Below are positions 2,183-57,067 of a stretch of 64,000 bases of DNA, one piece after another. The translations under genes and the position numbers were made by a program. Source of the DNA: Xylogone sp. PMI_703 (lineage: Eukaryota; Ascomycota; Leotiomycetes); assembly GCA_021399445.1 (NCBI GenBank), contig JAJTUQ010000008.1:558001-622000 (forward strand), written 5' to 3'. Positions within the stretch are counted from its first letter, which is position 1, and every line of letters begins with the position of its first letter. Under the pieces are notes generated by a model. That model was not told the DNA's origin, did no database searches, and saw only the letters and a program-made list of their open reading frames with translations.

Positions 2183-2782
2183 ATGCGGGGTGGTATCCAG
2201 ACCAGAGATCGACACACGCAGCCGCCGGTACAACCACAACGACTGCCAGTTTCTCAGCTACCGCCCGATAGATCTTGTCAGCAAACCAATTATACATTCT
2301 CTCAACAGAATAACTCTGACTTGGAGAAGTTACTATGCAACGTAAATGAACGCTTTGATGCCTTAGAGCATTCGTAAGTATCTATCTGTTTTGAAACTGA
2401 AAACTGGAACTAAGAAACACTAGATTAGAACAACTACGACTGTAAGCGGCCGCATTTGTTGGCTAAAACTAATATCTAACAATTGTCTAGGATGGTCGCA
2501 GAACACCTGGGAAGGATTGACGGTACCATGAAGAGATTCGAGGTTATGGGTAAAGGAGTCCTAGACCTGGCGCTGCAGGGGCCGCAGACCGAACAACTTA
2601 GCCACGCATCCCAAGATCAGAACCCGGACAAATCATACTATGAAGAGACGGGTATTGACCAAGCTTCAACTTCGATTGCTCCTCAGTTGAACTCTTCTCA
2701 GACTCTATATCCCTCACAGTCTTCCCAGGAGCAATATCTCGATTATGATATAATGGGGCTTTTGGGAAATAATATCACCTAG
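2183..2782 (+). CDS. small Q-rich coiled-coil protein with an 18-nt microexon
   Basis: Three exons fit together. Exon 1 ends at 2373. Intron 1 is 2374-2423 (GTAAGT...ACACTAG). A microexon of 18 nt spans 2424-2441. Intron 2 is 2442-2490 (GTAAGC, CTAAC branch point, TCTAG). Exon 3 is 2491-2782 with a TAG stop. Reading through the microexon keeps the frame and completes a heptad-like helix running from NERFDALEH into MVAEHLGRIDGTMKRF. The N-terminal part is rich in Gln and Pro; the C-terminal part is polar with an acidic end. The start is uncertain: the frame opens at 2159 and the ATG at 2183 is the first usable one. The architecture matches the gene at 54335-54963 (Q-rich start, coiled coil, microexon, acidic tail). 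Function unknown. Confidence 0.55.
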
Positions 2783-3226
2783 ATCCATGGAGGATGTGGT
2801 CCATCAGACTCTTTGTAGATACCCCAGAATGCTAGCCAGTCCCTTTCTGCAACGGCTACCTTTTTAGCTACCTTAGAGAGACTCGTTTTGATAGTGATGA
2901 TAGCTCGTCCTCCATCGAGGCCTGGGGCGCGTACAGGTTCTGCTTCTTGATCGGGACCCACTCGCACCTGATGACCTTGGGCGCGGTTACGATCGACCTC
3001 CCGGGCTGGATCACCCTTCTGATCGTGAACTGCCTCTCGTTCGGATTCACCTCCATGTTCATGGTGCTGTTGATGCTCATCTTCATCTAGGTCGGCAACT
3101 TGTTCTTCCTTTTCGACCTCGTTCGCGTGGAGAACTACGACGATGATCGTGATCACGACTTGCGCTACCGGTGAGGCTGCATCCACTTGTCCATCCTCTG
3201 CCTGTAGATGTCGTAGCTGATGTTCC

Positions 3227-3571
3227 GAACTGCAACGATTGGTTAAAGATCTTGAAACGCCAACAAAGTATGAGCGGGCGTTTCGATTGGCAACTGTGGT
3301 ATATTTCGGCCTCAAAATACATGATAAGCAATCTGACCGGGACCTGTAGGACATCCTCCCGATATACCAACTACCTAGAAGTTAAAGAGATGAGCAGCCC
3401 CTTCGACAGGTTCGTAAATCATTTTTGGGAGACATTGCGCGCCTTCACGAGGCGAAGGACAAATACGAGAACCTACCGATTGCGAAGTATTTGGATGATC
3501 GGTATGCGGGAAATTGGTGTGTCGAAGTACAGCAGGAACGGGATCTAGCTGTACTTTCATCCGCTAATTGA
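3227..3571 (+). pseudogene. decayed coding fragment of unknown family
   Basis: One frame from 3227 to the TGA at 3569-3571 reads as natural protein (helical, charged, with segments such as RLVKDLETPTKYERAF and LPIAKYLDDRYAGNW) but is interrupted by TAG at 3347-3349 and TAA at 3383-3385. Both stops lie within otherwise smooth coding-like sequence and could derive from CAG, CAA or TGG by C-to-T or G-to-A change. The GC-rich stretch upstream (2800-3200) may be more of the same gene but I could not assemble a frame. No domain recognised. Confidence 0.45.
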
Positions 3572-3684
3572 CCTGCTGGAGGTTGACCTGGAAATAAGGA
3601 AGCGGTCACCCGTAATCAGTAGGCAGTCATGTTAACATCTTTCGCTCAGGTATCACAGACCGTTTCCTCAACATTTGGTATGCT

Positions 3685-4633
3685 TTAAGACCACAACTTA
3701 TTGTATAATATCTGCATCCATGAATATTCTTGGAAAAATGGGTCCAGAATCTTTAATATCCAAATGGGCCAGTCATCGTTCCATCGGCCACACGAAAACA
3801 TGGCATTCGTAAACTCCCAGTAGCTAGGATACCAGCCTGCGAATTCCCAGTCGATCACCACCAATGAATATCTATCCCCAGCCACCTATTTGGCATCACT
3901 ATTCACGACTAGTTTTTTTAATCATAATGTTCTTTCGTTGAAAGTCGCCGTGAGTGAAGACAGGCTGATGATTCCTCAAGACAACAGGGAAGGCATGACG
4001 ATAGAATTCTGCCTTCTGAATCGGTAGATTGTTATAGATATATTTTTGGATCATGGCATTGTTTAGTTCGTCCTCAGACTTGAAAAGCCCATTGATTGAA
4101 CCTGATGGTGCTTCGTTGCCCATCCAAAAAACTGGATCCTCCAAGCCACGCTCTCCCAAGCTTCCATAATATCCTAAAGAGGGAATACTCCGTAGTTCAT
4201 CACAGAAATGCTTCAATTGGATACACACTTTCTCTTTCTGGCTTGTACTCATCGAACCCCAACGGGAAATAAGTGCATCTCCCTCGATATTCTCCATCAC
4301 GATATAATTGGCTCCATTCTGGTTGTCGGAATATATTGCATAGACCTGAGGAACTGGGATTTTCGTACAGCGACCGACGAAAAGCATGTTTTCACCCTCA
4401 AGGAGTTTAACACTAGTACCATACTTGACAACAAAGTGACAGCCAATCCGGACAATTCTGCGACCAGCATATTCGGAGAGCACATCCCCTGAGTTTGCAA
4501 TGGCTTCCCTTGTCGGGAGAGCACTAGGAAGGCATTCGGGAGGTGCAAAGTAAGGAAACTGCATTCTGGCTGTAGAATGAATTAAGTAGAAGAAAAGTGA
4601 AGATGGAGGGTATACTAATTTAATTCCAGGCAT
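3685..4633 (-). pseudogene. aminoglycoside phosphotransferase-like (APH) kinase-fold protein, broken
   Basis: The main frame (4633-3899) contains the nucleotide-binding and catalytic features of the fungal APH/choline kinase-like family: a VMENIEGDAL hinge segment and the catalytic loop THGDFQRKNIMI (catalytic Asp, Asn). It then hits a TAG at 3899. The expected metal-binding segment VVIDWEFAGWYPSYWE follows in another frame (3885-3685). No GT-AG pair of plausible length bridges the two, so a nonsense mutation plus a small indel has broken the gene; a sequencing error remains possible. The likely start is the second ATG (about 24 codons in), before QFPYFAPPECLP. Such proteins are predicted small-molecule kinases of unknown substrate. 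Confidence 0.7.
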
Positions 4634-5207
4634 ACTTTAACGAGGTTGTAAGCGAGTTACATTGTAATTCCGGACATCCTCTTCCTTAACACCGCCTCAT
4701 CGTCCTTCAGCGCCTCGACCTAACCACAACCACTTATTTGAAACCGAGCATAATGGTGAATAAGGCTACGAAATGCAAAGTTGGTGTACCACTCTCACCT
4801 GGTCCAGCATCACGAGCCTCGGATCACGGAGCAGTCGATTTGGCGAATATCTAAAATTAAATCCTCACGCGCGAGGGCCCATGTAGGGACCTATTTCCGG
4901 GACACGATTTCCCGCGGCCCGGCTCAACCTCACAGAAGATCGACTTGTCAACCATAGTCGACACGGCCACGAATTAAAAGCCAAATAAAGGAGTTATGTT
5001 TTAGGATGGTGATTAGCGAGGGTGCTGTCGGTGAGTCGAAAAATCTAATGGCACGGGTCGTATCGAAGATTTCTACTTCTTGCATCGTCCCATCACCTCC
5101 TATTTTCTACAACTTTTCTGTTAACCCATATTCCGAGTCTTCCGGCCTATTACTGGTGGCTTCTCGTGCAAGTTTGGGAGCGCCAGATCACCATACATAA
5201 TGGAGCA
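4634..5207. other. no gene recognised
   Basis: Short frames only (for example 5006-5200 on the plus strand), with no domain, splice continuity or repeat structure that I can support. Confidence 0.35.
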
Positions 5208-5410
5208 TCTCGACCAGTCACTTGAGAGGTGAACTGAGTGTTCGAGCACACGAGGCCGTGAGTCAGGTGAAAGGGAAACCGGCTTGTGATCCTGAAATTA
5301 ACGACCTGATCCGCTCTTCTGAAATTCCTATGCTTAAAAGCTTAGCTCGAGCACTTTCTTGGAAATTCTGTCCCATCTGTAGGCAAGCATTCTCGCCGCC
5401 AGATCTTTGA
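5205..5410 (+). CDS. short open frame with a CxxC pair, doubtful
   Basis: A frame open from just after a TAA near 5203 to TGA at 5408-5410 encodes about 67 residues ending in WKFCPICRQAFSPPDL. There is no ATG at the start, so it would have to be a 3' exon or relic. The CPIC pair resembles half of a zinc-binding site but nothing else supports a domain. It may well be chance. Confidence 0.2.
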
Positions 5411-5639
5411 GCCTCGAGATATTGACCGTCAACACTTTCTTCATTGTGCTGAAGTTTTGATATTACTCTTAAAGTACAAATTCTCGCCTAGAACTCTTTA
5501 TGACTCATATCAATGAAATATGCCATAATTTTATGGAGGCTTAATAAATAATAATATTTCCTCGATCACAGCGGAGAAGATACCTAAACATCTAGTACAG
5601 CACAACAATTCTAAATAGTCCTCAAAGCAGCACAGCACA

Positions 5640-6786
5640 CTAATTCATGAGATGACTATCCGCAGAAGCTCCGTGTCCGTAAATGTGCTGCCTACTAAGA
5701 GCTTCGTTGATGTATCTCATAACATTAGGATGTTTAGTCCATTGAAGTTTGAATATTTTTTGCCAGACGTAGCTAGCATAAGGGTGGGCAATAGTCTGTG
5801 GGATGTGATGGCAGAGCTCTTCAATCATGATGATTTTGAAGTTTTCGGGGCCCAACTCAAAAGCCTTCTGAATTACGTAACAACCAAAAGCGTGTGTGGA
5901 CAGGAACACGGTGTTACCTATAATTGTCTCCATGATCTTGATAATCTGTTCCAGAGTTCCCTGCTGAAAACAATGCTGAACCAAGAAATTGCCAAAACGG
6001 TTTGTCATGAGTGGGAAAGCTCGAGTTATGATGGCGTTAACAATATCGAATTTCTCGTCCGCGGTTCCGACCACAAGCATATTCTGAAGAAAAATAGATG
6101 CTTGCTTATTGCTACTACCAACAACTTCCTGAACGATATTCTTCCACTTGTGTGTATCTGTGCGATTACCGAGGCTGCAATGATTGAATGGTCTGTTGAC
6201 AGATGAATATGCACATGCATCAGCCAAAATTAACTAGCTCATCGTTAGAGAAAGATCTCAGATACTTCGCCAGTGCTTGGCATTAAACACCTACATTAGT
6301 GGTGTAAGGAGAACAGGTCCATTGTGGCCACGGATGAGAAAAACTACCACGGGCCACATTCATAGTCATATTGAATATAGGGTCTTCTGAGATCCTCAAA
6401 TTTCCCTGCCCATATGCAGCAGCAGCCGCACCAAAGCTGCCAATATAGCCTCCGGCATTGTTGCGAGACCTTGTGATCTGGTGAGCTAAGTGGTTTGGAG
6501 CAAGGGCATAGTGATTGCAAAATAGACCATTAGGGCGTCGATCTCCGAAAGGAGTGATCGGGAGGCAAGCTTGCGCTTTATGGTTCCTACGGATGTCCCA
6601 ATCCACTGCACTGTTGTTAGTTGATTTTGGCTCACCGATCCATAATCCGAGTGCGTTGGGATGACACGGAGAGGGCACACTACTACCAATTAAGTAGCCA
6701 TCTTCGTGTGCAGTCCACGTATCTAGAGTTGGCTGAGTATATATAGCTAAATTAGCAAAGGGATAGTCCGTGAAAACCTCCTGTTA
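5640..6786 (-). pseudogene. truncated Pumilio/PUF RNA-binding protein
   Basis: The downstream block (6233-5640) holds PUM repeats: KWKNIVQEVV, then ASIFLQNMLVVGT, NRFGNFLVQHCF and HAFGCYVIQKAFE, the typical repeat cores that contact RNA bases. The upstream block (about 6786-6295) is the low-complexity region that precedes the PUM domain in filamentous fungal homologues (PFGDRRPNGLFCNHYAL, HPWPQWTCSPYTTN). An intron 6294-6234 (GTAGGT...GCTAG) joins the two in frame. The upstream block starts at a splice-acceptor-like CTAACAG near 6786, and more distant 5' sequence is degenerate with a TAG. Relative to a normal eight-repeat PUM domain, the first repeats and the last repeats are missing (the protein stops at 5640). 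It is therefore a 5'- and 3'-truncated copy, probably non-functional. The genome should hold an intact parent gene elsewhere. Confidence 0.8.
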
Positions 6787-8622: not shown

Positions 8623-8624
8623 TA

Positions 8625-8700
8625 CAGTAAAAGGCGAATTGGGTGTCGCGGATTTTTTTAGTTAATTATTTTAACGGGATCCATTTTTAGACACCCTGTG
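8625..8700 (+). repeat. left terminal inverted repeat of element 1
   Basis: Seventy-six bases identical in reverse complement to 11243-11318. Starts with CAGTAAAAGG directly after a TA dinucleotide. Confidence 0.9.
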
Positions 8701-9217
8701 ACTGTGCGCCCGTTGCCTGGTTGTACTCTGAAGGTACCACGGCAATAAAGTACTGTAGCAAAATTTGTCATAGCTAATGTGTCATCATAGAACCAGGCCA
8801 ATTCCTGCTCTATAATTATTCCTGCTGGTCACCACTGCTGAATCGACACAAACAATTAACCAATGTTTTACTGGATACCTTATATCTTACTAGAACAGTA
8901 GAGTAGGTTGTTCATATTAAAGGCATTTTAATGGATGAGAGTAAAGAAGAAGGCAACATCCGCATGATCATTCTCGTGATATGTTAACACAGTATTACTC
9001 CACACGTGCCTTCTAGCTCGTAATGATGTCGGAATGGCACAACATTCAAGCCTTATAATGCGGGCAACAAGATACATTGCCTACCAAAAGTTATAGGACC
9101 AAATTAAAAACATTGAGTCCGGGATAAGAAGCTGATTTTGCATCTTATATAAGTCATAAGTGAACTGAATTCAAAGATTGGACTCAACTGCCTAATTGTA
9201 TTCTCGCTGCCTAAAGT

Positions 9218-11164
9218 CTATATGTTGTTTATATCGCCATCACGTCGAATAATAATCGACTGTGTTGTTGCTATCTCTGGAATATCCAAATAATAGAGTG
9301 CTAATCGATGTCTGTCGCCGAGTCTCTGGCCGATGCGATTTCTTATATGCTTTCCAAGTTCATTGCATCCAGGCTGTTCACTCATAACCTGGGACATCAC
9401 ATACCTATCTCCACGATATATGTGCAAGAGTCGTAAAGCGACCCTTATAAATGAGCCGCCTGAAGGATAACCTAGATAGCATTCAAGACGCGCGCGGCTT
9501 TTTTTAAAATTAATATTAAATTCACTTTGAGATGTATAATCCTCAGATATTTTTCTTTGGAATGATCCCTTGTCTGATAAACTCTCTTCGGATAGGATCT
9601 CTTTGGATGAATCGGTTTTAGTTGAGTCCTCCTTGAGAGATCTTCCTGATGTGCTACTCTCCTTAGGTGCTTCCGTCGCCTTGATTAAATCTGCTTCATT
9701 TGCATTGCTTTCTCTAAAATTGCTCCCTTGCAGTGTTCCTTCAAAATGGATTTTATATGTAGATCGATTCTTTTTACGTGTTGTCTTTGCATTGCTCCTG
9801 TCCCTCCTGTGCCAGTGAAATAGAGGGAGTGTAATATGCAGGGCTTTCTGTGTTATCTCAAATCCTTCGTCAAAGCCTAGCTTCTCCAACTCTCCTGCAG
9901 GACTATAAAGTCTTATATCATGACTCCTTATAGGCAATAACCAAGAAAAGTGCTCTGGGGATGGCGCAAGCAACTGGTTTTCATACAGTTGGTGTTCAAT
10001 GTCGTCCATAAATTCCCATGCAAAGATTGAGTCGTCGTTAGAATATCTGATGATTTCCTCCTGGAGCCGGAGGAAAGCTTTGTTGCCTTCACCATAGAGG
10101 AGAGGCATGTTCACTCCAAACAGTCCTAACAGAGAATATGCCCGATCTTCAACACGGGTTGTTTGCCTGTTGGCTGCCCAGGACATCTTCGTAGCGATAG
10201 AATACCTACGTAGTCTCTTCTTTATCTCCATATATCTGCCATAGTAAGAAACAAAAAGCACCCTGCCAAATATTGATCTGTCTATACCAGTGATATTGGG
10301 CAGAAAGTCTGTGAACGCCAGCTCATCGCGTTCCCCTAAAATTGTCCAGTCTTCATCGAAGAACTTAATTTTAGAAGGGGCGATCAACTCTTGCAGTGTC
10401 CAGCCTCGGCTTAGCCATCGACAACGACTGATTTGAGCTTTAGTGCACTGGTCGAGAGGATCGAGAAAGAGAAACTCGAAAATGCCACGGTTCTCCTTGA
10501 ACCTGTGTGGGCAAAGTCTACAATCCTCGAGAAACACGTAGCAAGTACTGGACATTGCATACCATTGGAACATGCTGTTTAGCGCCTCAGCCAACTCAGT
10601 GCTACTGGACTTGTCAATGCAACAAGTGTCGATCCAAACATAGTCGTACCCATCACGGCACGCCTGTAAGCAAACGCTCCAGATCTTCTTCCAGCCAGCC
10701 TTGATATGTGATTCTTGCTGTCTGATGATAGTCTGGTTTCTGCATCGGCAGCTCTCGCAAACTCCACGTGGGGTACGGTCTTCTTCGTTTCGTTGGAACC
10801 AGTTGAACCTTACCTTTGGGTCACGTCGCGAATTCGAATAGCCACGAGTAGCCCGCTGCTCTTTAGTGAGACAGTCGATTTCGTGATTGGGTCCTAGCGC
10901 AATATCCTCGAACAGAACTTCTTCCTGTCCCCATGTATGTGAGAGAATCGCAAAACAAGGCTTCCCCACTTCGGTATCATCAATGAGCCGAGAAACACCT
11001 TCGTGGATCAGGGCTCGTGCGTCTAGTAATCTCATAGCCTCTTTTGAGTTTTGCAAGAACCTGCTACCGTTTGCGGTAACTGCGAAGCGTTGAAGCTTTT
11101 CAACGGGCTTTCGTCGCTGGCAGGAAGAATGACAGGCCAAAATTGGCTTCGTAGCCACTACCAT
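9218..11164 (-). CDS. HET-domain heterokaryon incompatibility protein, cargo of element 1
   Basis: An uninterrupted frame of 648 codons. HET-domain blocks are all present: FAILSHTWGQEEV (residues 71-83), YVWIDTCCIDK (175-185), RGWTLQELIAPS (253-264), and KMSWAANRQTT with RAYSLLGLFGVNMPLLYGEG (326-360). Between the first two blocks is an insertion of about 60 residues with three closely spaced Cys (CESCRC) that is longer than in usual HET domains. The C-terminal part has a Ser/Lys/Glu-rich linker (about 490-560). HET proteins trigger cell death or growth arrest after fusion of incompatible hyphae. Two starts are possible: the ATG at 11164, which lies only about 155 bp from the element's right end, or residue 44 (MRLLDAR, 11035), which matches the usual HET start. 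No intron is needed. The intact frame inside intact TIRs suggests recent movement or selection. Confidence 0.88.
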   Translation of the reverse strand: MVVATKPILACHSSCQRRKPVEKLQRFAVTANGSRFLQNSKEAMRLLDARALIHEGVSRLIDDTEVGKPCFAILSHTWGQEEVLFEDIALGPNHEIDCLTKEQRATRGYSNSRRDPKVRFNWFQRNEEDRTPRGVCESCRCRNQTIIRQQESHIKAGWKKIWSVCLQACRDGYDYVWIDTCCIDKSSSTELAEALNSMFQWYAMSSTCYVFLEDCRLCPHRFKENRGIFEFLFLDPLDQCTKAQISRCRWLSRGWTLQELIAPSKIKFFDEDWTILGERDELAFTDFLPNITGIDRSIFGRVLFVSYYGRYMEIKKRLRRYSIATKMSWAANRQTTRVEDRAYSLLGLFGVNMPLLYGEGNKAFLRLQEEIIRYSNDDSIFAWEFMDDIEHQLYENQLLAPSPEHFSWLLPIRSHDIRLYSPAGELEKLGFDEGFEITQKALHITLPLFHWHRRDRSNAKTTRKKNRSTYKIHFEGTLQGSNFRESNANEADLIKATEAPKESSTSGRSLKEDSTKTDSSKEILSEESLSDKGSFQRKISEDYTSQSEFNINFKKSRARLECYLGYPSGGSFIRVALRLLHIYRGDRYVMSQVMSEQPGCNELGKHIRNRIGQRLGDRHRLALYYLDIPEIATTQSIIIRRDGDINNI

Positions 11165-11242
11165 GGCAACGCATTAGCCTTGACGAATTTAGCTACGGTA
11201 GCCGTGGTACCTTTAGAGTACAACCGGCGACGGGCACACAGC

Positions 11243-11318
11243 CACAGGGTGTCTAAAAATGGATCCCGTTAAAATAATTAACTAAAAAAATCCGCGACAC
11301 CCAATTCGCCTTTTACTG
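11243..11318 (-). repeat. right terminal inverted repeat of element 1
   Basis: Reverse complement of 8625-8700 without a mismatch over 76 bases. Followed by TA at 11319-11320. Confidence 0.9.
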
Positions 11319-11320
11319 TA

Positions 11321-11650
11321 TAACTCGCGCAGCTCCGAACAGGCATGGCAAGGCTGAATGCATACCTCCATCAGATTAAAGCATCACCGTCAGACCAGTG
11401 TGATTGCGGACAAGCCAGAGAAACAGTAGAACATTATCTTTTCCGATGCAGCAAATGGACATCACACCGGGTGGAAATGCTCCAATGTACTGATGTTCAC
11501 AGAGGCAACATTTCCTTTTATCTTGGAGGGAAGTCAGCAGCGGATGGAGCAAATTGGACCCCGAATATGAAAGCAGTACGAGCAACAATACGATTTGCAA
11601 TGTCAACAGGCCGGCTGGATGCAGATCGCCAGCCAGGAGAAGCATCTTAA
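11321..11650 (+). pseudogene. 3' fragment of a LINE ORF2 (C-terminal CCHC region)
   Basis: Encodes the very end of a non-LTR retrotransposon polyprotein: LAQLRTG, then CDCGQARETVEHYLFRC and a tail ending in a TAA. It aligns with the C-terminus of the longer LINE at 13248-15377 (TLAQLRTG, CACGQAKETIEHFLFRC) but is clearly a diverged family member. The 5' side is cut off by the right end of element 1, and matching upstream LINE coding sequence is not visible on the left flank of that element. Confidence 0.75.
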
Positions 11651-12845
11651 ATTTATTATTTCTTAAGTAGCTAATACCATACTAACCACCTCGTGCAATA
11701 GATAGGAGGCAGCTTCAGCTGCTGAGGATAGGATGCTGAACACTTGGAGAAGGGCCTTCAAGTTAGCCTACTAAAATTAATAACCCACGAGAATCCGTAG
11801 AGCAAGAAAGTATAAAAGAGATAAGACAGAAGTTACAAGCGGCTGATATATGGGCTGAAGGAGGCAAGAATTCACTTTAAGAAATGTACTTGTAGATTAG
11901 CAATAGTGGCCCTATTGGGTTACCCCACCGGGCGTTAATAAATTGTGTGTGTGTGTGTATAACCACACCGCCACTGACCACGATCCTTGATCGCTTAATT
12001 GGAGGAGCGACGACATGATAATAATTTTCGGAATTAATAGGTCAGGGGTGTTCGGGGGAGCTATACAATACATTGAAATGAAAATAAATAGAAATTTTAA
12101 CGCATTCACAGATTTAAAGTCACTTGAACTTGAAGTACCTACGATTTGTCTCGCTACAGGGTGCGTCTCGCTACGCAGGGACAGACGTTATGCCGTTTAT
12201 AGAAATAATTTAAGCCGAATTATTATTGATCAGGATGTTCCAGACACTTACAGTATTCATTTCGTGAGTTTATCTATTTCCTAATACTTGATTTCAGCAA
12301 AATCTACGAATATTAACATATCTCACTTTTGCTTATGTTGAGGTTTGGCAATGGGCTCATCCAAAAGCGCAGGGATTGCTTGATTGCTCAAAGAGTATGC
12401 AGCTACAAATGGCTCTAGATATACAGAACACCAGTAGTTGCCTAGAGTAAGTCCTAGATATAAGTCCTAATATCGGTTACAGAAGAGCCCTGTGTAGTGG
12501 TATAATTGTATCCTCCGAATATTGCAACAGCTTAAGTTTAATTCACTAATTTAATTAAAAAATTGTGTTAGAATAGTACATTACAGGTAATGTACAGTTT
12601 TCGTCAGTATTCTGCCCTAACGCGTGGCACGACATAATTCACGTCAGAGTACAATTCCGTATTTGCTATCTACTGCCGGCTTTATGCTGTCTGACTATGA
12701 AAGGATATTCTGTTTGTTGTACGATACGCCGAAGGTAACGCGTGTTAGGCTTTTGTGCGTGGATGAGCGTGGGATATGTATTAGTGCCTGAGGTATTAAG
12801 CCATTGGACTCGGTACGCCTACGTGCATTCCAGATTCAGCTAGTT
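11651..12845. other. LINE 3' untranslated-like sequence and gene-free DNA
   Basis: The part to about 11960 follows the LINE fragment and includes the GGGTTACCCC segment that recurs inverted near 7.8 kb, then a (GT)n run. From 12000 to 12845 only short frames occur (for example 12015-12284), none recognisable. A near-perfect hairpin lies at 12576-12595 (two 9-base arms, GTACATTAC and its complement, 2-base loop). Confidence 0.4.
11944..11959. repeat. (GT)n microsatellite
   Basis: Eight consecutive TG/GT units directly after the TTAATAAAT segment of the LINE 3' region. It may be the retrotransposon's simple-sequence tail. Confidence 0.8.
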
Positions 12846-13021
12846 CCATAATGGTGACAGATCCATAATGGTGACAGATCCATAATGGTGACAGATCCAT
12901 AATGGTGACAGATCCATAATGGTGACAGATCCATAATGGTGACAGATCCATAATGGTGACTAGCGCTCCGTAATGGTGACTAGTGCTCGTAATGATGACT
13001 AGCGCTGTTAATGGTGACTAG
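12846..13021. repeat. minisatellite, 17-bp unit then degenerate 19-20-bp units
   Basis: Six full copies and the start of a seventh of CCATAATGGTGACAGAT from 12846, without a mismatch, followed by about four variant units sharing TAATGGTGACTAG. The array ends about 200 bp before the recognisable start of the LINE. The shared core AATGGTGAC is kept through the change of unit length. Confidence 0.9.
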
Positions 13022-13189
13022 ACATCTACGGATAGTGAAAATTGCGAGATGACAGTATGATATACGAGGAATACGGTAGGCACACTCGGCGCCTTACGGA
13101 GTATGCATCTCATCGCTGCACTAACTGTTCTGATTCAGAGGCTGTCCTCGGTACGGAGGCAGATTTTATCCGGCACCGCAGAGGCAATC

Positions 13190-15545
13190 GCGTAGGACTA
13201 CGGGCGTACACAGTAATTACTAATCGTACGCAACAGAGCACTGGGGATTGCTACCCACAAATCACTTTGGGGCCAGAAAGCAACGGTCTACTGAACAAGC
13301 GCTAGTATTATTACAAGAACATATATACGACGCGTGGAGGAGGAAGAAAGTGCTGAGTCTGATCAGCTTTGACGTGAAAGGAGCCTACAACGGGGTGTAC
13401 AAGGAAAGACTACTGCAAAGGCTCAAGACACGCGGAATACCACAATACATAGTCAACTGGATTGATGCTTTTTGCTCCAATAGAACAGCAACCATAATGG
13501 TCAACGGCACAGTGTCGGAAACGCAAGAATTACCACAGGCTGGGTTACCGCAAGGGTCACCATTATCCCCAATCCTCTTCCTGTTCTTCAATGCCGACTT
13601 AGTACAGCATAAACTGAGCTCTAAAGGAGGATCTATAGCGTTTGTAGACGACTACTCGGCATGGGTAGTAGGAGAGTCGGCAGAAGCGAACAGACCTGGA
13701 ATCGAGGGGATAATCCAGAAGGCTATACGGTGGGAGAAGTGTAGCGGAGCTACATTCGAGCCAGACAAGACAACTTTGATTCACTTTACCAGGAATAAGG
13801 CAAAGACCAGCACACAACCATACAACATAAAAGGAGCGGAAATCGAGCCCAAGGAAAGTGCCAAATTGCTGGGAGTGATACTGGACACGGAGCTCCGATT
13901 CGAAGAACATATCTCCAGAGCGGCAACCAAAGGCTTGAAAGCAGCTATGGCACTAAGGAGGCTACAAGCCATATCAACACCAACCGCAAGGAAACTATTT
14001 ATCGCAACTGTGACGCCCGCAATCGACTATGCGTCAGTGGTGTGGATGCACAGGTGTACTGGCAAAGAAGCAGCTATGTTGAACAGACCGCAAAAAGTAG
14101 GAGCCCAAGCAATTATTGGTGTATTCCGTACAGTAGCTACAGCAGTAGCCGAAGCAGAAGCCAGTCTACACACTATAGAAGACCGACACGTAAGGAAAGC
14201 AACAGTATTCTGGGTACAAACACGAACACTACCGCAAACTCATCCGCTAGCTAGAATATCTGCCAAGGAGTGTGCCAGGTTTACATCTCCACTGCAAAAG
14301 ATAGCTAAAACCTGCCAGAAGATACCAGTAGACAGGATGGAAATTATCCAACCGTACATCATTGCTCCCTGGGAGACCCGAATAAAGGTTATCACAGACC
14401 CAGATGAAGTGGATAAAGAGATCAAATACAGACATGGAGTACTAATAGCAGTAAAGGCATCAGCCAGGAAAGAACTAGTAGGCATAGGAAGCATAACTAG
14501 CTATACTAACCAGTATATCTCGATCAGAGACCCAGTAATTAGATCAACTACGTTAGGAGCAAGAGCAGAGCAAAACCCGTACACGGCAGAGTTGATAGCA
14601 GCTGCCAGGGCGGCGCAGGAGATCGACCTCAGCCATGCAACTAAAAGTGTAACAATCTTCACCAGTAATCTGGCAGTAACCCAAGTAATACAACGACCAC
14701 GGCAACAATCAGGCCAGAGTAGCATTAACCAAATCTACGAAGTCACAAGGAGGCTAGAAGGGATGAAAGTGAAGGTTAAGGTGGTGTGGGTCCCGAAGGA
14801 GAAGGAATTCAACTTGACAGAGGAAGCAAGGGGACAAGCTTGGGAGGCTACAATAGATGGAAAGAAACCAAAAACCGACACATACCAAGCTAAATCAACC
14901 ACGACAAATAAAGCCCTCAGGGCAAGGAAGGCCAGAGACATACCCAAAGAAGTAGGAGAGTACTCGAGAAGATTAGACAAGGCACTACCGGGAAAGCATA
15001 CCCGAACGCTGTACGACAAGCTCAACAAGGGACAAGCAAGAACTCTGGCACAGCTACGTACAGGGAAGAACAGGCTGAACAGTCACCTATTCAGGATTAA
15101 GGCAACGGACACAGAGATATGCGCATGCGGGCAAGCGAAAGAAACAATAGAGCATTTCTTATTTAGGTGTATACAGTGGGAATCACAGAGGCGACCAATG
15201 ATGCAAAAGGCAGGAGAGAAAGCCGGGAATTTGACATACCACTTAGGTGGGAAGGCGGAAGGCGAGAAGAATTGGAGCCCCGATATAGCAATGGTGAATG
15301 CAACGATCGAATATGCGATAGCCACAAGGCGTCTGAACTACGAACCAAAAGCTGGAAGCACACAGGAGGAAACGTAGCCAAAATTAACACCACAACCCCG
15401 ACAACATACCTTACGACCCGTACGGATAGGCCTTCGATTCAACCACCGAAAATAGGACGTTGTACGACTGGAGAAAGGCCTCCAAGCACACCTATCAACA
15501 CACAAAATGTGCGGGAAACCGACGAATTAGAATATATATAGACTG
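13190..15545 (+). mobile_element. 5'-truncated non-LTR retrotransposon (Tad/I-like LINE)
   Basis: The element contains reverse transcriptase and RNase H-like domains but no apurinic endonuclease and no ORF1, so it is 5' truncated, the usual outcome of incomplete target-primed reverse transcription. Coding similarity can be traced a little upstream of the long frame: around 13215-13250 short LINE-like segments (AIANR-like, then ATEHWGLLPT) occur in shifted frames. The 3' limit is uncertain; an AT repeat (ATATATA) near 15535 may be close to the tail. Confidence 0.75.
13248..15377 (+). CDS. LINE ORF2 fragment: reverse transcriptase and degenerate RNase H
   Basis: A 709-residue open frame. The RT motifs are in order: SFDVKGAYNGV with the first catalytic Asp (residue 42), GLPQGSPLSPIL (99-110) and FVDD (132-135, the YxDD equivalent), so the polymerase core looks intact. 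An RNase H-like region follows (about 440-550) but looks inactive: the usual Asp in the second motif is replaced (FTSNLAV) and the final GNExAD-type motif is not recognisable. A CCHC-like cluster CACGQAKETIEHFLFRC lies near the end. The first codon is internal to the ancestral protein, so the ATG is probably not a real start. The long frame without stops suggests a fairly young or selected insertion. Confidence 0.85.
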   Translation: MLPTNHFGARKQRSTEQALVLLQEHIYDAWRRKKVLSLISFDVKGAYNGVYKERLLQRLKTRGIPQYIVNWIDAFCSNRTATIMVNGTVSETQELPQAGLPQGSPLSPILFLFFNADLVQHKLSSKGGSIAFVDDYSAWVVGESAEANRPGIEGIIQKAIRWEKCSGATFEPDKTTLIHFTRNKAKTSTQPYNIKGAEIEPKESAKLLGVILDTELRFEEHISRAATKGLKAAMALRRLQAISTPTARKLFIATVTPAIDYASVVWMHRCTGKEAAMLNRPQKVGAQAIIGVFRTVATAVAEAEASLHTIEDRHVRKATVFWVQTRTLPQTHPLARISAKECARFTSPLQKIAKTCQKIPVDRMEIIQPYIIAPWETRIKVITDPDEVDKEIKYRHGVLIAVKASARKELVGIGSITSYTNQYISIRDPVIRSTTLGARAEQNPYTAELIAAARAAQEIDLSHATKSVTIFTSNLAVTQVIQRPRQQSGQSSINQIYEVTRRLEGMKVKVKVVWVPKEKEFNLTEEARGQAWEATIDGKKPKTDTYQAKSTTTNKALRARKARDIPKEVGEYSRRLDKALPGKHTRTLYDKLNKGQARTLAQLRTGKNRLNSHLFRIKATDTEICACGQAKETIEHFLFRCIQWESQRRPMMQKAGEKAGNLTYHLGGKAEGEKNWSPDIAMVNATIEYAIATRRLNYEPKAGSTQEET

Positions 15546-15712
15546 GTAACTAATAACGAGACACGAGAACGCATAGTATGGGCTAGTGCGAGGGAGGAGT
15601 TATTTGTATGGAATTGTATTAGATAGAAACGTAGTACTAGTGCCCTTTTAGGCTTAGCCGGGCGGAATAGAACATCATCATCAGTAATTACTACGGAGTA
15701 AAAGTTGGCCTG

Positions 15713-15770
15713 AGCTAAGAGGCACTCATAACTTAGCTAAAGGTACTCATAACTTAGCTAAAGGCACTCA
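15713..15770. repeat. short tandem repeat, 21-bp unit
   Basis: About 2.5 copies of GGCACTCATAACTTAGCTAAA, just before the left end of element 2 at 15830. Confidence 0.8.
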
Positions 15771-16387
15771 ACGGCGTCACTGCCTCAACATAAGCCTTAC
15801 ACTACAGCTTTGTTTGACATTTTATTATACAGTAAAAGGCGAAATGGGTGTCGCTTTTTTTTAGTTAACTTTTTTCAGTGTTGTTTATACCTAGAGAGAC
15901 TTGTGGCTGTGCACCAATGCCCCAGTTGTACTCCAAAGGTACCGCTGCTAATTTGTCATCACAGAGCCGAATCTGGACTAACTTATTCTTAGGCTTAAGT
16001 TACAAATACACAGCCTGATGATTTCACTGAAGTGTACGGTACAAATATGTGCGAACTCGATTTCCAGTTAGCCAAACGCTTAAAGAGCAGTTTAAGCGCA
16101 ACGGATAAGCCAAAACAGATGAGGATTAATTAAGTATAATCCCTACATGGTACGAGTACCCGATTACGGTCGGAGATAATTACAGAAGCTTACAAAAGCT
16201 TCTAGAGTTCTTCTGCACTCAGTTATACAAAATACTAAAACCATTTTAGCCACGTATATAAGCAACACACTCCCTTGAACTCTCTCTATTAAATTATTAA
16301 AGTAATTTATTAATGTTAGAGAGATGAAACAAGACTAATTGAACATCCAAGGACGTTACAGCTTGAACAAAATCGACATTCTGCTCT

Positions 16388-19351
16388 TCAAGCATCTGTC
16401 ACGTCCTCAGCCCGTGGAAAAGTCTTTGTAAAAAAGACCCGCAAAACCTGAAGCCGATCTTCAATCCTACTACACCATTTCGAGGAAGGTCCTTGGACCG
16501 TTCTATATCCAGAAAATGCTCGACTGTACATTGCCTTTGCCATGTCTTTCCGATCGGTTAGCAAGAAGAGGTCACCAAAGGCAACCATGGTGTTCAACGC
16601 CGGTATATAAGATGACACAAGTTCAGGGCTCAGAGCGTCCTCATAGCCTTGCAACGCCTGGTTGTACATCTTCTCTGCCTCCACCAGCTTGCCTTGATTG
16701 ACGTAAAGCATGCCTAAGTTGTTGACTATTCCATGTGTTAATATGTGGTTTGTCCCAAGTGTCTTCTCACTGCCTTGCAATGCCCGAATGCACATCTTCT
16801 CTGCCTCCACCAGCTTGCCTCGGTTAGTATAAAGCGAGCCTAGGTTATTGACTATATCAAGTATCGATGTGTGGTCTGGTCCAAGTGCTTCCTCCTTGCC
16901 TTGCAATGCCCGAATGTACATCTTCTCTGCCTCCGCCAGCTTGCCTTGGTTAGCGTATAGATTGCCTAGGTTATTGACCGTATCAAGTGTTGATATATGA
17001 TCTAGTCCAAGTGCTTCCTCCTTGCCTTGCAGTGCTCGAATGTACATCTTCTCTGCCTCCGCCAGTTTGCCTTGGTTAGCGTAAAGATTGCCTAGGTTAT
17101 TGACCGTATTAAGTGTTGATATGTGGTCTAGTCCAAGTGCCTCCTCTTTTCCTTGCAGTGCCCGAATGTACATCTTCTCTGCCTCCGAAAGCTTGCCTTG
17201 GTGAATATAGAGAGTGCCTAGATTGTGTAGCGCCCATTCCATTCCCTCAATATCCAGCTTGCTGTCTACGATCAAATGCTCACATCGTGCAACATGTTGG
17301 AGAAGCCGCTGCTGCAAGAGCCACCACTTATCCACATCTGTGCTAGGAACCTCTGACGCCACGCAAGTCAGGGCTAGCCTTGCCAGGCTCCTGTCCCACT
17401 CCCCGTTCAGCACAAATATCGTCCATGAGTGCACACAACTGTGCATACCATACCCTTCAGACCTAGATGGCTGTTGCAGAGAAGCTTCTTTGTGAACTAG
17501 CCCGTACTCGCATAGTAGTCGAATTGCCTCGTTGAAGCTCAATTCGTCCTCAGTAAGCTTTCGTATCAACTCGTTATCCGCAGAGCATCCATGTTGAATG
17601 AGTTCAAACCATACATCTTGCCTATCAAAATATGCCCACAGCTTGAGCAATTGAGCTGACGTTGCATTCTGTTGTTGGATCCGGTCGAAGGTGATCTGCC
17701 ATGTTGTGTATAGTGATCGATCCTCATATGAATTCAACAATGGACTCGTTGTCTGGAGTTTCAGCCATGACTTCTCATATAGCCGAAGATACTCCGAGAA
17801 GCTCGTTGTCATATGCTCTAGATATGCCCCAGCGGTAGCTAGAGCAAGAGGAAGGCCATCTAGCTTCGCGACGAGCGCTTTTGCATCAGGATCTATCTTG
17901 TTAGTGTTACTGGATTTTACATAACCCCAAAGCGACATACTGTTTTCAATGTCCTTCCGCCTAGATGTATTTGAGAGGATTTTGAGCCCTTCTTCAATAC
18001 TCAGTAACTTCTGAATATGGAGACGTTGACCTAGTGTGACATTCGCTGATCGCGTTGTGATAATGATTGAGCCATGGTCAGCTCCTGATATGTATGGACG
18101 AATATCCACTGCCAAACGGTCGGAATTGTTGGGACTTTTCGGATTATCATAATTATCATATATCATCAGCCAGTGTGTATTCTTTGGGAGATTGAGCCAA
18201 GCTTTGACCGACTTGACCACTTGATCAAGATTTCCTTCCAAGTTCACACCGACAAGCATGCTAGTCGAAGGATGATGCTCTAGGACTTTCTGGGCAATGT
18301 CCATAAAGCTTAACCGAAGAGAATCTTCATCATTCGCATTCAGCCAGAATATTGCCGTGTATTTCTCTAAGTGTTGTCTAACGTATTCGATTGCCAACTG
18401 AGTCTTTCCAATCCCTCCAAGCCCGTGAAGGATGACTGCCGCTCGGGTCCTATGCCCATAAAGCAGCCGGTGCATCTCCGTGAGTTCCGATTGTCTTGCA
18501 ACAAACTGAGCAGCTTCGGGTAAGGTTGAAAGGTCGAGCCCGACAGTAAATTGTTCGAAATCAGTGCCTACGCTGTTCAGTTCTCTGATTCTGTCAGCGT
18601 ATAGATGAGAGCTGCATACCTTTGTAGGATTTATGAATTTCTTCCTGAAGCCGCCGAGATGCCCTTTCTCCTCCCTCTCCGTAGATTAACGGCATAGAAA
18701 TGTCGAAAATACCAAGTAAGCAGTAGAATTTGTCTTCTTCAAGAGTAGTGTTTCGATTTTCTGCCCATGACATCCGCTCGTTGATACTGAAATTCGACAA
18801 TGCATCTCCTCTGAGAGCATTTGTGGCGATGCCGGTAATCTCGTAAATCATAGGCTCCAATGTTAACTTATTTCCAAATCGCTTGCCTTCCAAGCTAAAA
18901 AAGTCAACTAGCGTTGGAGTGCAATCAGTTCTTGAAGCGTCCAGCCCCGAGTAAACCATCGACTGTTCTTGAAGGCCGTTGTCCATGCGGGGTTTGATTG
19001 ATCACGCTGTCCATCTATCGAGACATCTGAGAGATAAACATAGCACCGCGCCGCGTTCTGGTACCAACGAAACATAGAGTTGATGGCCTCTGAAAGTTCC
19101 ACCGCATTTCTCTTATCTATGCAACAGGTATCTACCCAGATATATCGAAGGCCATCAGCGCCGGCTTGTTTTGCGCAGAACTCTATCTTCTTCCAGCCAG
19201 CTTTATTCCTGCCGGTGCCAGCCTCTACATCTTGAAAGCTAACCTCTTCTTTGCTCCAAGTATGGGAAAGGATCGCGTAGGCGGGGACATCTCTGCCGAT
19301 GAACTCGCGAAGGACGAGGTCGCCGTCGGGTTTGTGCTCCAAGAGACGCAT
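16388..19351 (-). pseudogene. NLR: HET-NB-ARC-TPR protein with one frameshift, cargo of element 2
   Basis: Exon 1 (19351-18620) encodes a HET domain starting MRLLEHKPDG, with AYAILSHTWSKEEV, YIWVDTCCIDK, RGWTLQELIA, MSWAENRNTT and MPLIYGEGG. Near 18915 the frame changes: after QELIA a two-base gain (or one-base loss) leads to a stop, and the rest of the HET domain continues in the next frame. Intron 18619-18568 (GTATGC...CGTAG, 52 nt) keeps the frame into exon 2 (18567-16388). Exon 2 carries the NB-ARC P-loop LHGLGGIGKTQLA, Walker B LMIYDNYD, IIITTRS and DGLPLALATAGAYLEH, then five 42-residue kinesin-light-chain-type TPRs (core NQGKLAEAEKMYIRALQG) and a degenerate sixth. Such proteins are fungal NLR-like receptors that trigger incompatibility or cell death. 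Apart from the frameshift everything looks functional, so a sequencing error or very recent inactivation is plausible. Confidence 0.85.
16640..17230 (-). repeat. internal 126-bp TPR-coding tandem repeat
   Basis: Five successive 126-bp units encode the 42-residue TPRs of the NLR. The middle units are over about 90 percent identical at the nucleotide level by eye, which indicates recent internal duplication or gene conversion, as known for the high-identity repeat class of fungal NLRs. Confidence 0.75.
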
Positions 19352-20281
19352 CGTGAGGCATCAGGAGCGCGCCAGACAGGTTTTCGGACAGAGAATATTC
19401 GAGGAGCTAGTTAAATGTATCGGTGTCAAATCTCAGTTTCATCATCAACGGAAAGATGTGGTAATTACGAAGAGAGCATTGGAAGTAGAGGAGGGATGCA
19501 AGGCTGAGTCGTGGGCGCAGGCTGTTGGCGATCCATCAACTTGGATCGCGAAGACAGAACACCAAAAAGCCCTCCACCACCGCCCTTTCTGCCAGGCCAG
19601 CGCGTGTTCTAGGTATTGGAAGGAAGGTCTTGCATCTTGACCTGGTTGGCTCTGTCAACGTGAAGTTACTGCGGTGATGGTGATGGAAGGGGGACGAGTG
19701 AGAGCCAGTTCTACGCCACAATGGCCCTGAGCTAGCACGATGAAACCAGCACGTGATCACCCAGGCCTTATGTTAAAGTACGCCCCTGTCCTGACCCTCT
19801 CTTTGCATGGAGAAACTCCCGTAATACATGTCGCTGAGGATAGAGTGTCTTTAAAGCCTGAAGTCATATTCTTTCAAGATGGAGCTTTCGTACTCTGGTT
19901 TCGAAATTCGCAAACTGATCGATGGTCGTGATGGAGCGGAGGGAAACAGCTAAATGACTTTCGATGCCGTGAACGTAACGATCGATAGCATGCATAACCA
20001 AACCTATAGTAACTTTCCTGCTATAGATATTTACGAAGAATTACCGCAGGTAGGGCCTTCCAAGCTATTATGAGAGTGGATATCATGCATACAAAGCAAC
20101 TATTAGGCAAGAATTGGCTCGCTCTATGATGACAAACTAGGCCTGACAAGTTGGGCTTCGATGGCCGTGCTACCTTTGGAGTACATCCAGCCGAGAGCGC
20201 AAAGCCACAGGTGTCTAAAATGGAGCCCGCTTAAAAAAGTTAACTAAGGAACCCGCGACATCCAATTCGCCTTTTACTGTA

Positions 20282-41057: not shown

Positions 41058-42540
41058 ATGCCCTTTCCATTCAGCTCGCTATGCGAACTTCTCAATAAAC
41101 TTGACGAGAACCGCACCAAGTCATTGATTGCAAGCAAGATCTCCGGTTGCCTAGTTTAGCAAGCATAAGGGAATCATCCCACGACAAGGTTCGGAAGCAG
41201 TTGCATTCTTGTCGTGTCTCTTCCCCGAACGCCGACCAGATAGGGTCTTCGGCCTAAGAGTAGGACAGCTTGAAAGAATTATACAACGAGCACAATGTCT
41301 TGGATCATCCCGGATGATGGATTTGAAAAGGTGGAAGACCGGTGACAGTTTAGACTTCGCATCATGCGTGGAACAGGTGATGTCTATAACAGACTGCGAG
41401 TCAAAGCACAGCCCAGACGTGACCTTAGAAGAGCTTGATGATGTCCTTGATCAGATTGCGGCCACGTCAGCGTTCTCATCAGCCAATTTGAGAGGAAAGG
41501 TCAAGGAGAAACATGGTCAACCAATCTGCACAGATGATTTGCTTTCGAGGGTATTCCGGGCGTTGAAGAGCTCGGAAGCAAAGTGGATGGTTCGTATGTT
41601 ATCGAAGAATTACAGCCCAGTTTGCGTTCCTGAACTGTTGGCAATGCGCCAATTTCACTTCCTTTTGCCTAGTCTCCTAACCTTTCAAAATTCGTTCGAA
41701 GCCGCCGTGAAGCTCCTAGATGAACCGACAATCGGCTCCATACCATTCCAAGTGGCAAGTGATGCGGAAGGTGCACTGACAGAGATTGCAAATAATGAGC
41801 TCAGACCTCAGGTTGGGGTGATGATTGGGCGACCGATCTATGAAAAGGCAAGAAGCATCAACCATTGTTGTCAATTGGCGGGTCAAAGGCAAATGAGTGT
41901 TGAACGGAAATATGACGGCGAATACTGTCAAATCCACATCGATCTGAACAAGGCCAATCATATCCAAATTTTCTCCAAGAGCGGGAAGGACTCTACCAGC
42001 GACCGCAGAGGGCTCCATCCTGCACTGCGAGATTGCCTAGCGCTTAATAAAGCGGGTAGTAAGATCAAGAAGCAGTGTATCCTAGAGGGAGAATTGCTTG
42101 TATGGAATGATGACGACGAGAAAATTGAACCCTTCTACAAAATTCGTCGGCATGTGAAGCGATCTGGAAACTTTATCGGAACTGCTCTCGACTTACCCGC
42201 CGGTCCAGGTGAGCATCTTATGATCATGTTTTACGATATTCTGCTACTTGATGACACTCCATGCATCAGAGAGAACCATGAGAAACGGCGTGGACTACTC
42301 GAATCTTTAGTTCATTGCATTCCCGGCCGGGTCAACATCGGAACTCGTGATATAATTGACTTCTCATCTTCGGATGCACCAAAGTATCACTTATCCAGTG
42401 TTGCTGTAACTGCTGCTCAAACTTCTGACAGGAAAGAATTTTTAGATTCTCCATGCGGAACATGTCCGCAAGGGCATAGACTTGAGGATGTCGAAGTAAT
42501 TCTAAATCGTCACCTACATCCTCTTAGCCAGATTTCATTA
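41058..42540 (+). pseudogene. ATP-dependent DNA ligase family protein, frameshifted and 3'-truncated
   Basis: The start is at 41058 (MPFPFSSLCELLNKLDENRT), as shown by the paralogous N-terminus at 60070. At about 41150 a small deletion shifts the frame; the remainder (FSKHKGIIPRQGSEAVAFL onward) is open from about 41154. It contains a ligase N-terminal helical domain and the adenylation domain: motif I VERKYDGEYC (the Lys that accepts AMP), ILEGELLVW and MIMFYDILLLDD. Similarity fades after PGRVNIGT (about 42340), and the OB-fold and any BRCT domains are missing. The frame runs on to 42660, but its last part (from about 42545) is antisense to a BTB gene fragment, so a rearrangement joined two gene relics. 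Ligases of this type are related to eukaryotic DNA ligase IV-like enzymes. Confidence 0.75.
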
Positions 42541-42544
42541 AGGA

Positions 42545-46990: not shown

Positions 46991-47027
46991 GAGACTGGGG
47001 TCGGAATGGCGCACACTAGATAACTGC

Positions 47028-47098
47028 AGGACGTCTAAAATGGATCTCGTTAAAGCAATTAACTAAAAAAAAAGCGACATCCATTTCGCTCTTTACTG
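47028..47098 (-). repeat. solo end of the HET-carrying TIR element family
   Basis: Reads, in reverse complement from 47098, CAGTAAAGAGCGAAATGGAT, followed by the same layout as elements 1 and 2 (T-rich stretch, AGTTAATT, a TCCATTTTAGACGTCC block). TA follows at 47099-47100. No matching opposite end was found within the window, so this is a truncated copy. Confidence 0.75.
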
Positions 47099-54963: not shown

Positions 54964-57067
54964 CCCTACCTGAAATGCTAATACCAAGATGAGCAACCAG
55001 ACCTACTATCGTCCAATTTAGCCGATGGGTGAACAATGAGTAGAACATATGTTACAGCTATGGAGCGTGATCAAAGTAGGTCGATAGTACCGAGAAAAAG
55101 ATCTTTGGGAAATTTCTTTTGAATTCTACATGGGGAGGAGTTCTTCGGTGTTTAATACAGACTGTGCTCATAATTTAGTTATTTAGCCACCCCGAATCGA
55201 TTTGTCACAAGATTTTACAATTTGTCATGTCCTTCCCTTTAGGTTCATCTCATTCTACGAACGCCTCAAAGGCGCTCCACAAGACGCACAAGTTATTTTG
55301 TGTTTCTGGTCTATATTTATATCCGGGATCGGAAAAATTAGTATTAGAGATAGCAGTTGCACAACCATACGAAACTATTTCTCTACCGGTGCTCATTGAT
55401 ATAGCCCGTTGGAGGGCCATTTATGCAAACGCTTTTAGTAACAACTGATATGACTTGATTTTCAAATACATCTTGACTCACCCTCCATGCTATCTTCTAC
55501 GCCGCCTGCGCCACCAGTGCCGCACATTTGTACGGCCCACATAATGACAATAATGACACGTCTCGACAATTTGGATTTGGATTATTACACGATCATTTGA
55601 AATCCAAGATGGAATATCTTTGACCAATCATGTGCTACCAGTAAAGGTGAAAGGCCAGCTAGCAAGGAGACCTAGAAAGAGTTTCCGAAGCTGCGAGGGG
55701 TAAGTTAACGGAAACCTTGCGTAAAGAGAAGTACTGTAACTGTATAATTCCTCCCCGACTAAGCTCTATTGCCGTGGGTAGGCGGTCTTTTCTGGGGTCT
55801 GCCATGTGGGTAAATCCACAGTTTGAAATATGTGAACAAAAGTATGACTACCGTGCGGAGGTCGCAGGTGGTATGACTTCATTCTATTAACTTATGGGGA
55901 ACACGATTACGTCACTTACAATTATTTGTTGGCGCAAAAAAGGGGTTGTCAACAAAGACTAGAGGCGAAGTATTATGTTGTACCTATTGAACTCGTTCCT
56001 GAGTTTACGGGCTCTACGCGTCGCATACCGTTTACGGTTACCGAGTTCTCCGCCCGGTATAGTGCTACGACGTTGCCAAAGGTGGCTGGCCGGATGCAAG
56101 ACGAGAGATATGATCCAGAAATGAACGAGGATCCAGAAATGAACGAGATAGATTCACGAGCTTTTTGACCACTTTCCCTCCGCGCCCACTTACTGGATAT
56201 GATGTTCCGGACGGGTTAATGGATGGCGTGGGCCATTTTTGGCTTATTATCTGATCGCTAAAAAATATTTCGCCCAGCACAAAACGCCATTTCTTTGTCA
56301 CTAAATTTGTCCTAAAAGCTTATCCCCTCGGGCACCATTCGCTTAGGCATCAATTTGTATGGCAAGGATACAGCCAATCATAACCTTCAATTTTTTACTC
56401 CAAATTATATGAATTTATTTAACAATTAGTTACGTACTAATTCTCTTAAGATATTAATCAAAATAAGGCCTATTTTAGAGTGTTTTCTTTGAAATTTAAA
56501 CTACTTTCGCTCAAGATATTTTAATGTTCTTTTTTATGCCTAAGGCCACCACGCTAAAAGCGGCTCCCATCCCAAAAACAACGCTAAAGTGGTTCATGAT
56601 AGTTTCTAGGGTCCGATATGCCGATCCATTTGAAATGAATTGAGTTACTGTACCCTCTTACAGTAATAAGTTACTTCTACTATCTTATCATTTTCCCTAA
56701 GTCAAATGGCTTGTCTTAATCCCATGTACTTATCTTGCGTGACAAAATAAGGCTCACGAGACTCTCCGAAAGTCTTGGCGTAAGACCCCATTGCCCCTCC
56801 ATATAGCTTGCATTAAGTGGGAGCACTTCGAGTGAGGAAAGTAGCTGAACCGTTCTCTATCAGCATTCTCCACATAATCCCTTAATTCTCCTACTTCGTT
56901 CTCCTAATCAATGACAACAGCGGGACTAGCCTCAGTTTTGCGAACTGCATACCGCACCACATCCTCCTTCTACTTTTCTTGTAGGTTATTCTACACAACC
57001 CTTCTAACACCTTTCAAGGATCAGCACTTTGGAGTAGGCTTAGCATATGACCATATTGTTATCCTCG
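54964..57067. other. no confident gene; two small open frames
   Basis: Frames at 55227-55448 (plus, 73 codons, AVAQPYETISLPVLIDIARW) and 55905-56168 (plus, TGSTRRIPFTVTEFSARYS, ending with an 18-bp direct repeat coding DPEMNE twice) may be gene relics, but no domain, start or splice support is visible. The stretch 56300-56900 is AT-rich. Confidence 0.3.

Follow-up and report, generated by a model that had tools for sequence, protein, structure and literature searches.

The stretch of Xylogone sp. PMI_703 DNA analyzed here (G000:C24:558001-622000, 64,000 nucleotides, called the window; the genome measures 50.1 Mb in 25 contigs) contains two elements with terminal inverted repeats, E1 and E2, each carrying one gene with a HET domain. 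These elements very probably belong to a DD34E Tc1/mariner cut-and-paste family of this fungus that, judging from sequence, ferries host-type HET and NOD-like receptor (NLR) genes as cargo.

Complete copies and their cargo

The two elements of the window, the spacer between them, and their genes (frame lengths in amino acids, aa) are as follows.

8625..11318, E1, 2694 bp, non-autonomous, TA at 8623-8624 and 11319-11320
8625..8782, + strand, left terminal inverted repeat of E1
11169..11318, - strand, right terminal inverted repeat of E1
9218..11173, - strand, cargo of E1, a 651-aa frame (stop to stop) with HET (PF06985, E 4.9e-9)
11321..15827, E1-E2 spacer, which three paralogous sites of this contig lack along with both elements
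13224..15377, + strand, reverse transcriptase/RNase H frame of long interspersed nuclear element (LINE) type in the spacer, named by eye
15830..20279, E2, 4450 bp, non-autonomous, TA at 15828-15829 and 20280-20281
15830..15978, + strand, left terminal inverted repeat of E2
20131..20279, - strand, right terminal inverted repeat of E2
18594..19360, - strand, HET part of the E2 cargo, two frames (PF06985, E 2.1e-15 for 18908-19360)
16388..18685, - strand, NB-ARC-TPR part of the E2 cargo, a 765-aa frame

Homology links the four ends (at 8625, 11318, 15830, and 20279), each of which opens with CAGT and is bordered by TA. The arms of E1 match over 96 nt at 97%, with homology reaching about 158 bp (88.6%); those of E2 match over 27 nt (93%), beyond which homology is weaker. 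The cargo gene of E2 as a whole (16388-19360, - strand) has its HET part spread over more than one frame, and its GenBank model (P0241) is a protein of 949 aa with HET, NB-ARC, and TPR domains. Re-examination therefore bears out the initial annotation, which had described E1 and E2 as elements with homologous CAGT ends, TA duplications, and a single HET-type gene in each (one HET frame in E1, one HET-NB-ARC-TPR gene in E2). In the spacer, a 17-bp unit is also repeated about seven times in tandem (12842-12977).

We took a census of the family ends with four end queries and two sequence patterns. Genome searches with three of the ends returned 18, 13, and 10 matches, and that with the fourth returned six. 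A 27-base end pattern with up to three mismatches occurs at 17 sites in the 50.1 Mb and its reversed control at none, so the sharing of ends is beyond chance. An 18-base pattern at two mismatches gave 22 matches against six in its control; three two-mismatch matches of this pattern (on C1, C19, and C20) lie outside the catalogued loci and were left uncounted. Complete copies, i.e., pairs of inward ends with TA at both sides, number five (E1-E5); they range from 2.7 to 6.6 kb and hold one cargo gene apiece. Those outside the window are:

C22:3542590-3547433, E3, complete copy, TA on both sides
C24:929791-936431, E4, complete copy, TA on both sides
C24:953857-959241, E5 (= L011), complete copy, TA on both sides

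C24 (1.3 Mb, 2.6% of the genome) houses four of the five (p = 2e-6, a value limited by C24 having been chosen along with the window; two of the other three elements are on C24). This contig may represent a chromosome that is accessory or rich in repeats.

The initial annotation had proposed that inward-facing ends be paired and the genes between them inspected. A Pfam scan of frames found a HET-domain gene inside all five complete pairs: HET in E1, HET-NB-ARC-TPR in E2 and E4, HET-ankyrin in E3 (a 655-aa frame), and HET-WD40 in E5 (a 431-aa frame), the last two being cargo types beyond those first described. The E5 protein has HET at 27-115 and WD40-type matches from about 260 onward, with no NACHT among the best 25 of its 51 Pfam matches. 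No cargo gene of a non-HET kind was recognized in the five copies.

Because E1 and E2 were picked for their HET genes, the fair test is that of E3, E4, and E5, all three of which carry HET/NLR cargo (p = 1.1e-4 with 476 candidate genes; p = 4.8e-4 with 800 genes). Since the cargo lineage of E4 is that of E2, we also tested E3 and E5 alone (p = 1.9e-3 with 476 candidates; p = 5.1e-3 with 800). The 476 HET/NLR candidates are the sum 261 + 63 + 152, with overlaps kept and each search a lower bound, and NB-ARC genes fall outside this count. The genome yields at least 150 HET matches (261 candidates) and at least 124 NPHP3_N matches (152 candidates). Chance values computed for five elements (8.4e-8) or four (2.3e-6) were set aside as ignoring the choice of E1 and E2 for HET.

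One-ended and decayed copies

A HET/NLR gene also lies inward of the end at six of 12 one-ended or end-fragment loci:

L013, HET, one-ended or decayed locus
L014, HET-NB-ARC-TPR, one-ended locus
L019, SesA-NACHT, one-ended or decayed locus
L021, HET, one-ended or decayed locus
L022, NACHT, one-ended or decayed locus
L025, NACHT-ankyrin, one-ended or decayed locus

NACHT-type NLRs in decayed copies thus widen the cargo range further. The chance of six in 12 is between 1e-6 (4 kb inward) and 1.4e-4 (9 kb); without L014, which shares the lineage of E2, the count is five in 11 (p = 1.6e-5 to 8.9e-4). Of two transposase remnants without ends, one (L023) adjoins a HET gene.

The abundance of HET and NLR genes raises the alternative that the elements take up any neighboring gene, HET/NLR genes being merely numerous and situated in transposon-rich regions. 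This would agree with the small number of new cargo lineages once E1 and E2 are put aside (E3 and E5 only) and with a precedent in fungal DNA transposons, histone H3 in hAT elements (PMC6710886, in its available sections). We nevertheless regard it as unlikely, as both the joint result for E3, E4, and E5 and that for the decayed loci are improbable by chance, and the complete copies show no other recognized kind of cargo gene. We favor instead a family in which HET/NLR cargo would be captured or retained selectively.

Empty sites and mobility

The initial annotation had suggested looking for empty TA sites in other strains. Such sites were found by paralogy inside one genome (one strain) for E4, for E3, and for the block made up of E1, spacer, and E2. 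That of E4 is in the window:

56528..56827, - strand, empty target of E4, the joined E4 flanks with a single TA (56678-56679), 100% over 300 bp

The 1-kb flanks of E4 match the window copy at 99.8% and 96.4%, the latter with no mismatch and one gap. An empty site with one TA indicates that E4 inserted as a single 6.6-kb unit, cargo included. About 2 kb of the window (55716-57677), in which an AT-hook-like frame (57068-58234, identified by eye) partly lies, is also found around E4. E3 sits within a WD40-repeat gene, and when its flanks are joined a 252-aa frame reads through the junction; upstream of this point the gene shifts frame, the 309-aa frame there having no Pfam domain. For E5, a paralogue spans the junction by just 17 bp, which is weak.

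L174, L175, and L176 are paralogous sites, L174 and L175 being almost identical, in which the left flank of E1 runs straight into the right flank of E2; the entire 11.65-kb block is missing from all three. The simplest reading is a composite insertion of E1, spacer, and E2 by their outer ends. Stepwise growth, with a first element at a TA and later insertions beside or inside it, is a plausible alternative: both E1 and E2 have TA on each side, the spacer contains the LINE-like sequence, and the locus has been rearranged, the window flank of the block being without about 70 bp and 4 bp found near the junction in the paralogues. It would, however, need insertions exactly at a boundary TA, and the paralogues lack the block in its entirety. 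L176 (C24:983100-983600) differs by 5 bp, with TACTGTA beside the E1/E2 target TA, a sequence that we take to resemble a Tc1-type excision footprint.

It is highly improbable that ends were inserted separately on both sides of resident HET genes with no movement of whole units. Solo end fragments such as L012 and L015 do occur, but the empty sites of E4, E3, and the E1-spacer-E2 block speak for whole units at one TA, and five of five non-element HET relatives lack ends and transposase in stretches of 6.5-7.5 kb. For E4 this explanation is refuted by its empty site. Mobility of the family as whole units is supported by these comparisons.

Transposase, ORF2, and the shared backbone

E4 encodes a 348-aa transposase with DDE_3 (PF13358, E 1.6e-27). 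In an alignment of 16 relatives its second acidic residue is D254 and the final one E289, with 34 residues between them, and its profile matches Sleeping Beauty among solved structures (E 1.3e-4). A candidate for the autonomous copy with the same ends and a DDE transposase that the initial annotation had proposed to search for is thus E4, its transposase being of DD34E type and with an intact frame. E5 has a copy 82% identical to that of E4 with six stops, and a search of the elements with the family proteins found no transposase in E1, E2, or E3. The earlier statement that a transposase is lacking is consequently correct for E1 and E2 and wrong for the family as a whole, and the proposed carrier family is Tc1/mariner-like with incompatibility-type cargo, as suggested, but not purely non-autonomous.

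The second gene of E4 (ORF2, 373 aa) is convergent with the transposase, and no Pfam domain was found in it. It matches F5884DRAFT_809026, annotated in Xylogone sp. PMI_703, at 94% over 89%, and remnants of it occur in E5 and L014, with two weak matches on C10. At E 1e-5 ORF2 had 125 matches in a protein search, its own GenBank model among them; the best 120 of these 125 place homologues in Pezizomycotina and metagenomes. Among the matches listed, the transposase and ORF2 lie together on one contig in Colletotrichum sojae (CSOJ01_15943/15944, 4077 bp) and in Paramyrothecium foliicola (HJFPF1_13485/13484, plus another pair, 13577 and 13603, on a contig of 155,628 bp). For at least five more pairs the agreement extends to the length of the contig and the type of source only.

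Positions 3960-6641 of E4 and 2667-5385 of E5 are homologous (82%) and comprise ORF2, the transposase, and the right end. Both elements have one HET gene between the left end and ORF2; their left parts differ, each with its own HET gene, and the two genes face opposite ways with respect to the common backbone, so the initial claim that cargo keeps one orientation relative to the ends fails as a family rule. The backbone of E5 shows a strong excess of C:G to T:A changes relative to E4 with no CpA preference, unlike classic repeat-induced point mutation. Separate Tc1-like elements of this genome (L026:2558-5663 and L027:4180-7285, both 3106 bp long and with ends of 125 bp) have a transposase only distantly related to that of the E4 family (30-32% identical). 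A second frame, of 481 aa, is present in L026, and none of at least 200 aa in L027; neither could accommodate a cargo gene as large as that of E4, and L026 is a two-gene Tc1-like relative without cargo.

Origin of the cargo genes

We built a tree of 62 HET domains, dropping rows of fewer than 150 residues (L165 and L167). The HETs of E1, E3, and E5 stand beside three different non-element genes (support 93/90, 99/76, and 93/87), and those of E2, E4, and L014 group with Oidiodendron and Scytalidium genes (93/93). A single clade of the six element HETs was rejected (approximately unbiased test, p-AU = 2.7e-22; 1.7e-5 without the long-branched E1), so cargo was probably taken up more than once, on the evidence of the sequences. 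A single HET acquisition, with later gene conversion and swaps of C-terminal domains among copies and host paralogues, is improbable. One HET-NB-ARC-TPR lineage is indeed common to E2, E4, and L014, and redistribution of repeats is known in the HNWD family of Podospora (PMC1805685, in part); against this stand the rejected one-clade topology and the opposite orientation of the E4 and E5 cargo.

The HET-NB-ARC-TPR genes of E2, E4, and L014 are about 82-86% alike over 2.9-3.1 kb. The ratio of nonsynonymous to synonymous substitution rates (dN/dS) among them is 0.14-0.22 (HET and NB-ARC exons), which points to purifying selection, whether it acted before capture or within the element. In the GenBank models of both E4 and L014, a break of 40-50 bp separates HET from NB-ARC, as expected of a common intron and of capture as genomic DNA.

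Five non-element HET relatives, three of them tree neighbors, have no family ends, transposase, or ORF2 in their 6.5-7.5 kb stretches apart from one 14-bp match (E 0.066), with any ends beyond these stretches escaping detection. Six related HET genes on five contigs form an amplified group (L130 on C19, L131 on C25, L132 on C24, L133 and L141 on C4, L155 on C10), and family ends are absent at the two of them viewed with flanks (L171 and L173).

Points against selective carriage

Several observations weigh against a family that selectively carries functional HET/NLR cargo. No HET/NLR gene was seen inward at six of the 12 one-ended or decayed loci (L012, L015, L016, L017, L018, and L020, as judged by longest frames, Pfam for some, and tblastn with family proteins), nor in the frames inspected at the other transposase remnant, L024. 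The expectation that HET, NACHT, or NB-ARC genes lie between the ends therefore holds strictly for the complete copies only. The 4077-bp contig of C. sojae leaves scant room for cargo beside transposase and ORF2, so cargo-free relatives may exist. In E4, ORF2 stops short of most aligned homologs, and the HET-NLR gene is spread over several frames with a five-piece GenBank model; given this and the split-frame HET of E2, the activity of E4 today and the function of the cargo are matters that we only infer. The pairings of E1, E3, and E5 with host genes are only moderately supported, and fully supported branches force just two label changes, the best tree needing four. Finally, a dN/dS below one may stem from selection preceding capture.

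Three of the loci without HET/NLR genes (L016-L018) are copies of one larger repeat enclosing the end, and one such copy is in the window:

47027..47098, - strand, short end fragment in the larger repeat, which recurs at C24:746823 and C24:1024511

The frames of L018 at 41155-42660 and 44645-45673 of the window match ATP-dependent DNA ligase (PF01068, PF04675) and a calpain-type protease (PF00648). Frames at 49451-51328 resemble, by eye, a MULE-type transposase and a FAR1-like DNA-binding part.

Proposed mechanism and comparison with known systems

In the model that we propose, the backbone consists of two ends, each about 150-200 bp long, together with a Tc1-like transposase and a convergent ORF2. 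The E4-like transposase would move E4 and, in trans, the smaller E1, E2, and E3; cargo would be captured as genomic DNA from the large HET/NLR repertoire of the genome; and E1, spacer, and E2 may have traveled as one composite unit via their outer ends. It is also conceivable, if doubtful, that the element keeps a standing slot for HET/NLR cargo into which cell-death receptor genes are recruited repeatedly because they favor the element, e.g., by rendering hyphae that have it incompatible with those that lack it or by protecting against competing mobile elements, in the manner of the defense genes borne by bacterial transposons.

The backbone is classed as Tc1/mariner, and what is new is recurrent HET/NLR cargo in a Tc1-like family. 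TA target duplication, inverted ends starting with CAGT, and a DDE_3/DD34E transposase are shared with Tc1/mariner DD34E elements. According to the available part of PMC4188875, Tc1-mariner elements generally span 1.3-2.4 kb and have one gene, whereas those described here reach 6.6 kb and add ORF2 and a HET/NLR cargo gene. Fungal hAT elements likewise hold a host-type gene between DNA transposon ends, histone H3 having been captured in several fungi; there, as far as the sections of PMC6710886 at hand go, a single gene was taken as transcript or retrocopy, whereas here several HET/NLR genes lie in a Tc1-like backbone and two GenBank models share the intron-like HET/NB-ARC break. Starships also carry NLR or vegetative incompatibility genes among their cargo but, in the part of PMC12134995 available, measure as much as about 700 kb, hold many genes, and encode a tyrosine recombinase; our elements are small, use a DDE transposase, and carry one cargo gene, and no tyrosine recombinase was found in a Pfam scan of ten frames from E1, E3, E4, and E5 (short frames being outside the scan).

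As in the HNWD genes of Podospora (het-d/het-e), HET is fused here to further receptor-type domains, but, among the Pfam matches listed, no cargo of E1, E3, E4, or E5 combines HET, NACHT, and WD40 in one protein. The available portions of PMC1805685 and PMC12222747 do not describe HNWD genes as transposon cargo, although one NWD pseudogene adjoins a transposon relic. Those portions, together with the corresponding ones of PMC9262711 and PMC12258605, do not describe HET/NLR genes as Tc1 cargo. We found no published account of Tc1 elements carrying HET/NLR genes among the literature matches listed.

The short end sequences can be used for surveying other fungal genomes, and the finding raises the question of why HET/NLR cargo is retained. 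Genes for fungal allorecognition vary greatly and often occur in some strains but not in others. A compact element moving one HET/NLR gene at a time and showing precise empty sites would be a simple and testable mechanism for such presence and absence, and we propose it as a concrete route by which genes for non-self recognition may appear, vanish, and spread between strains.

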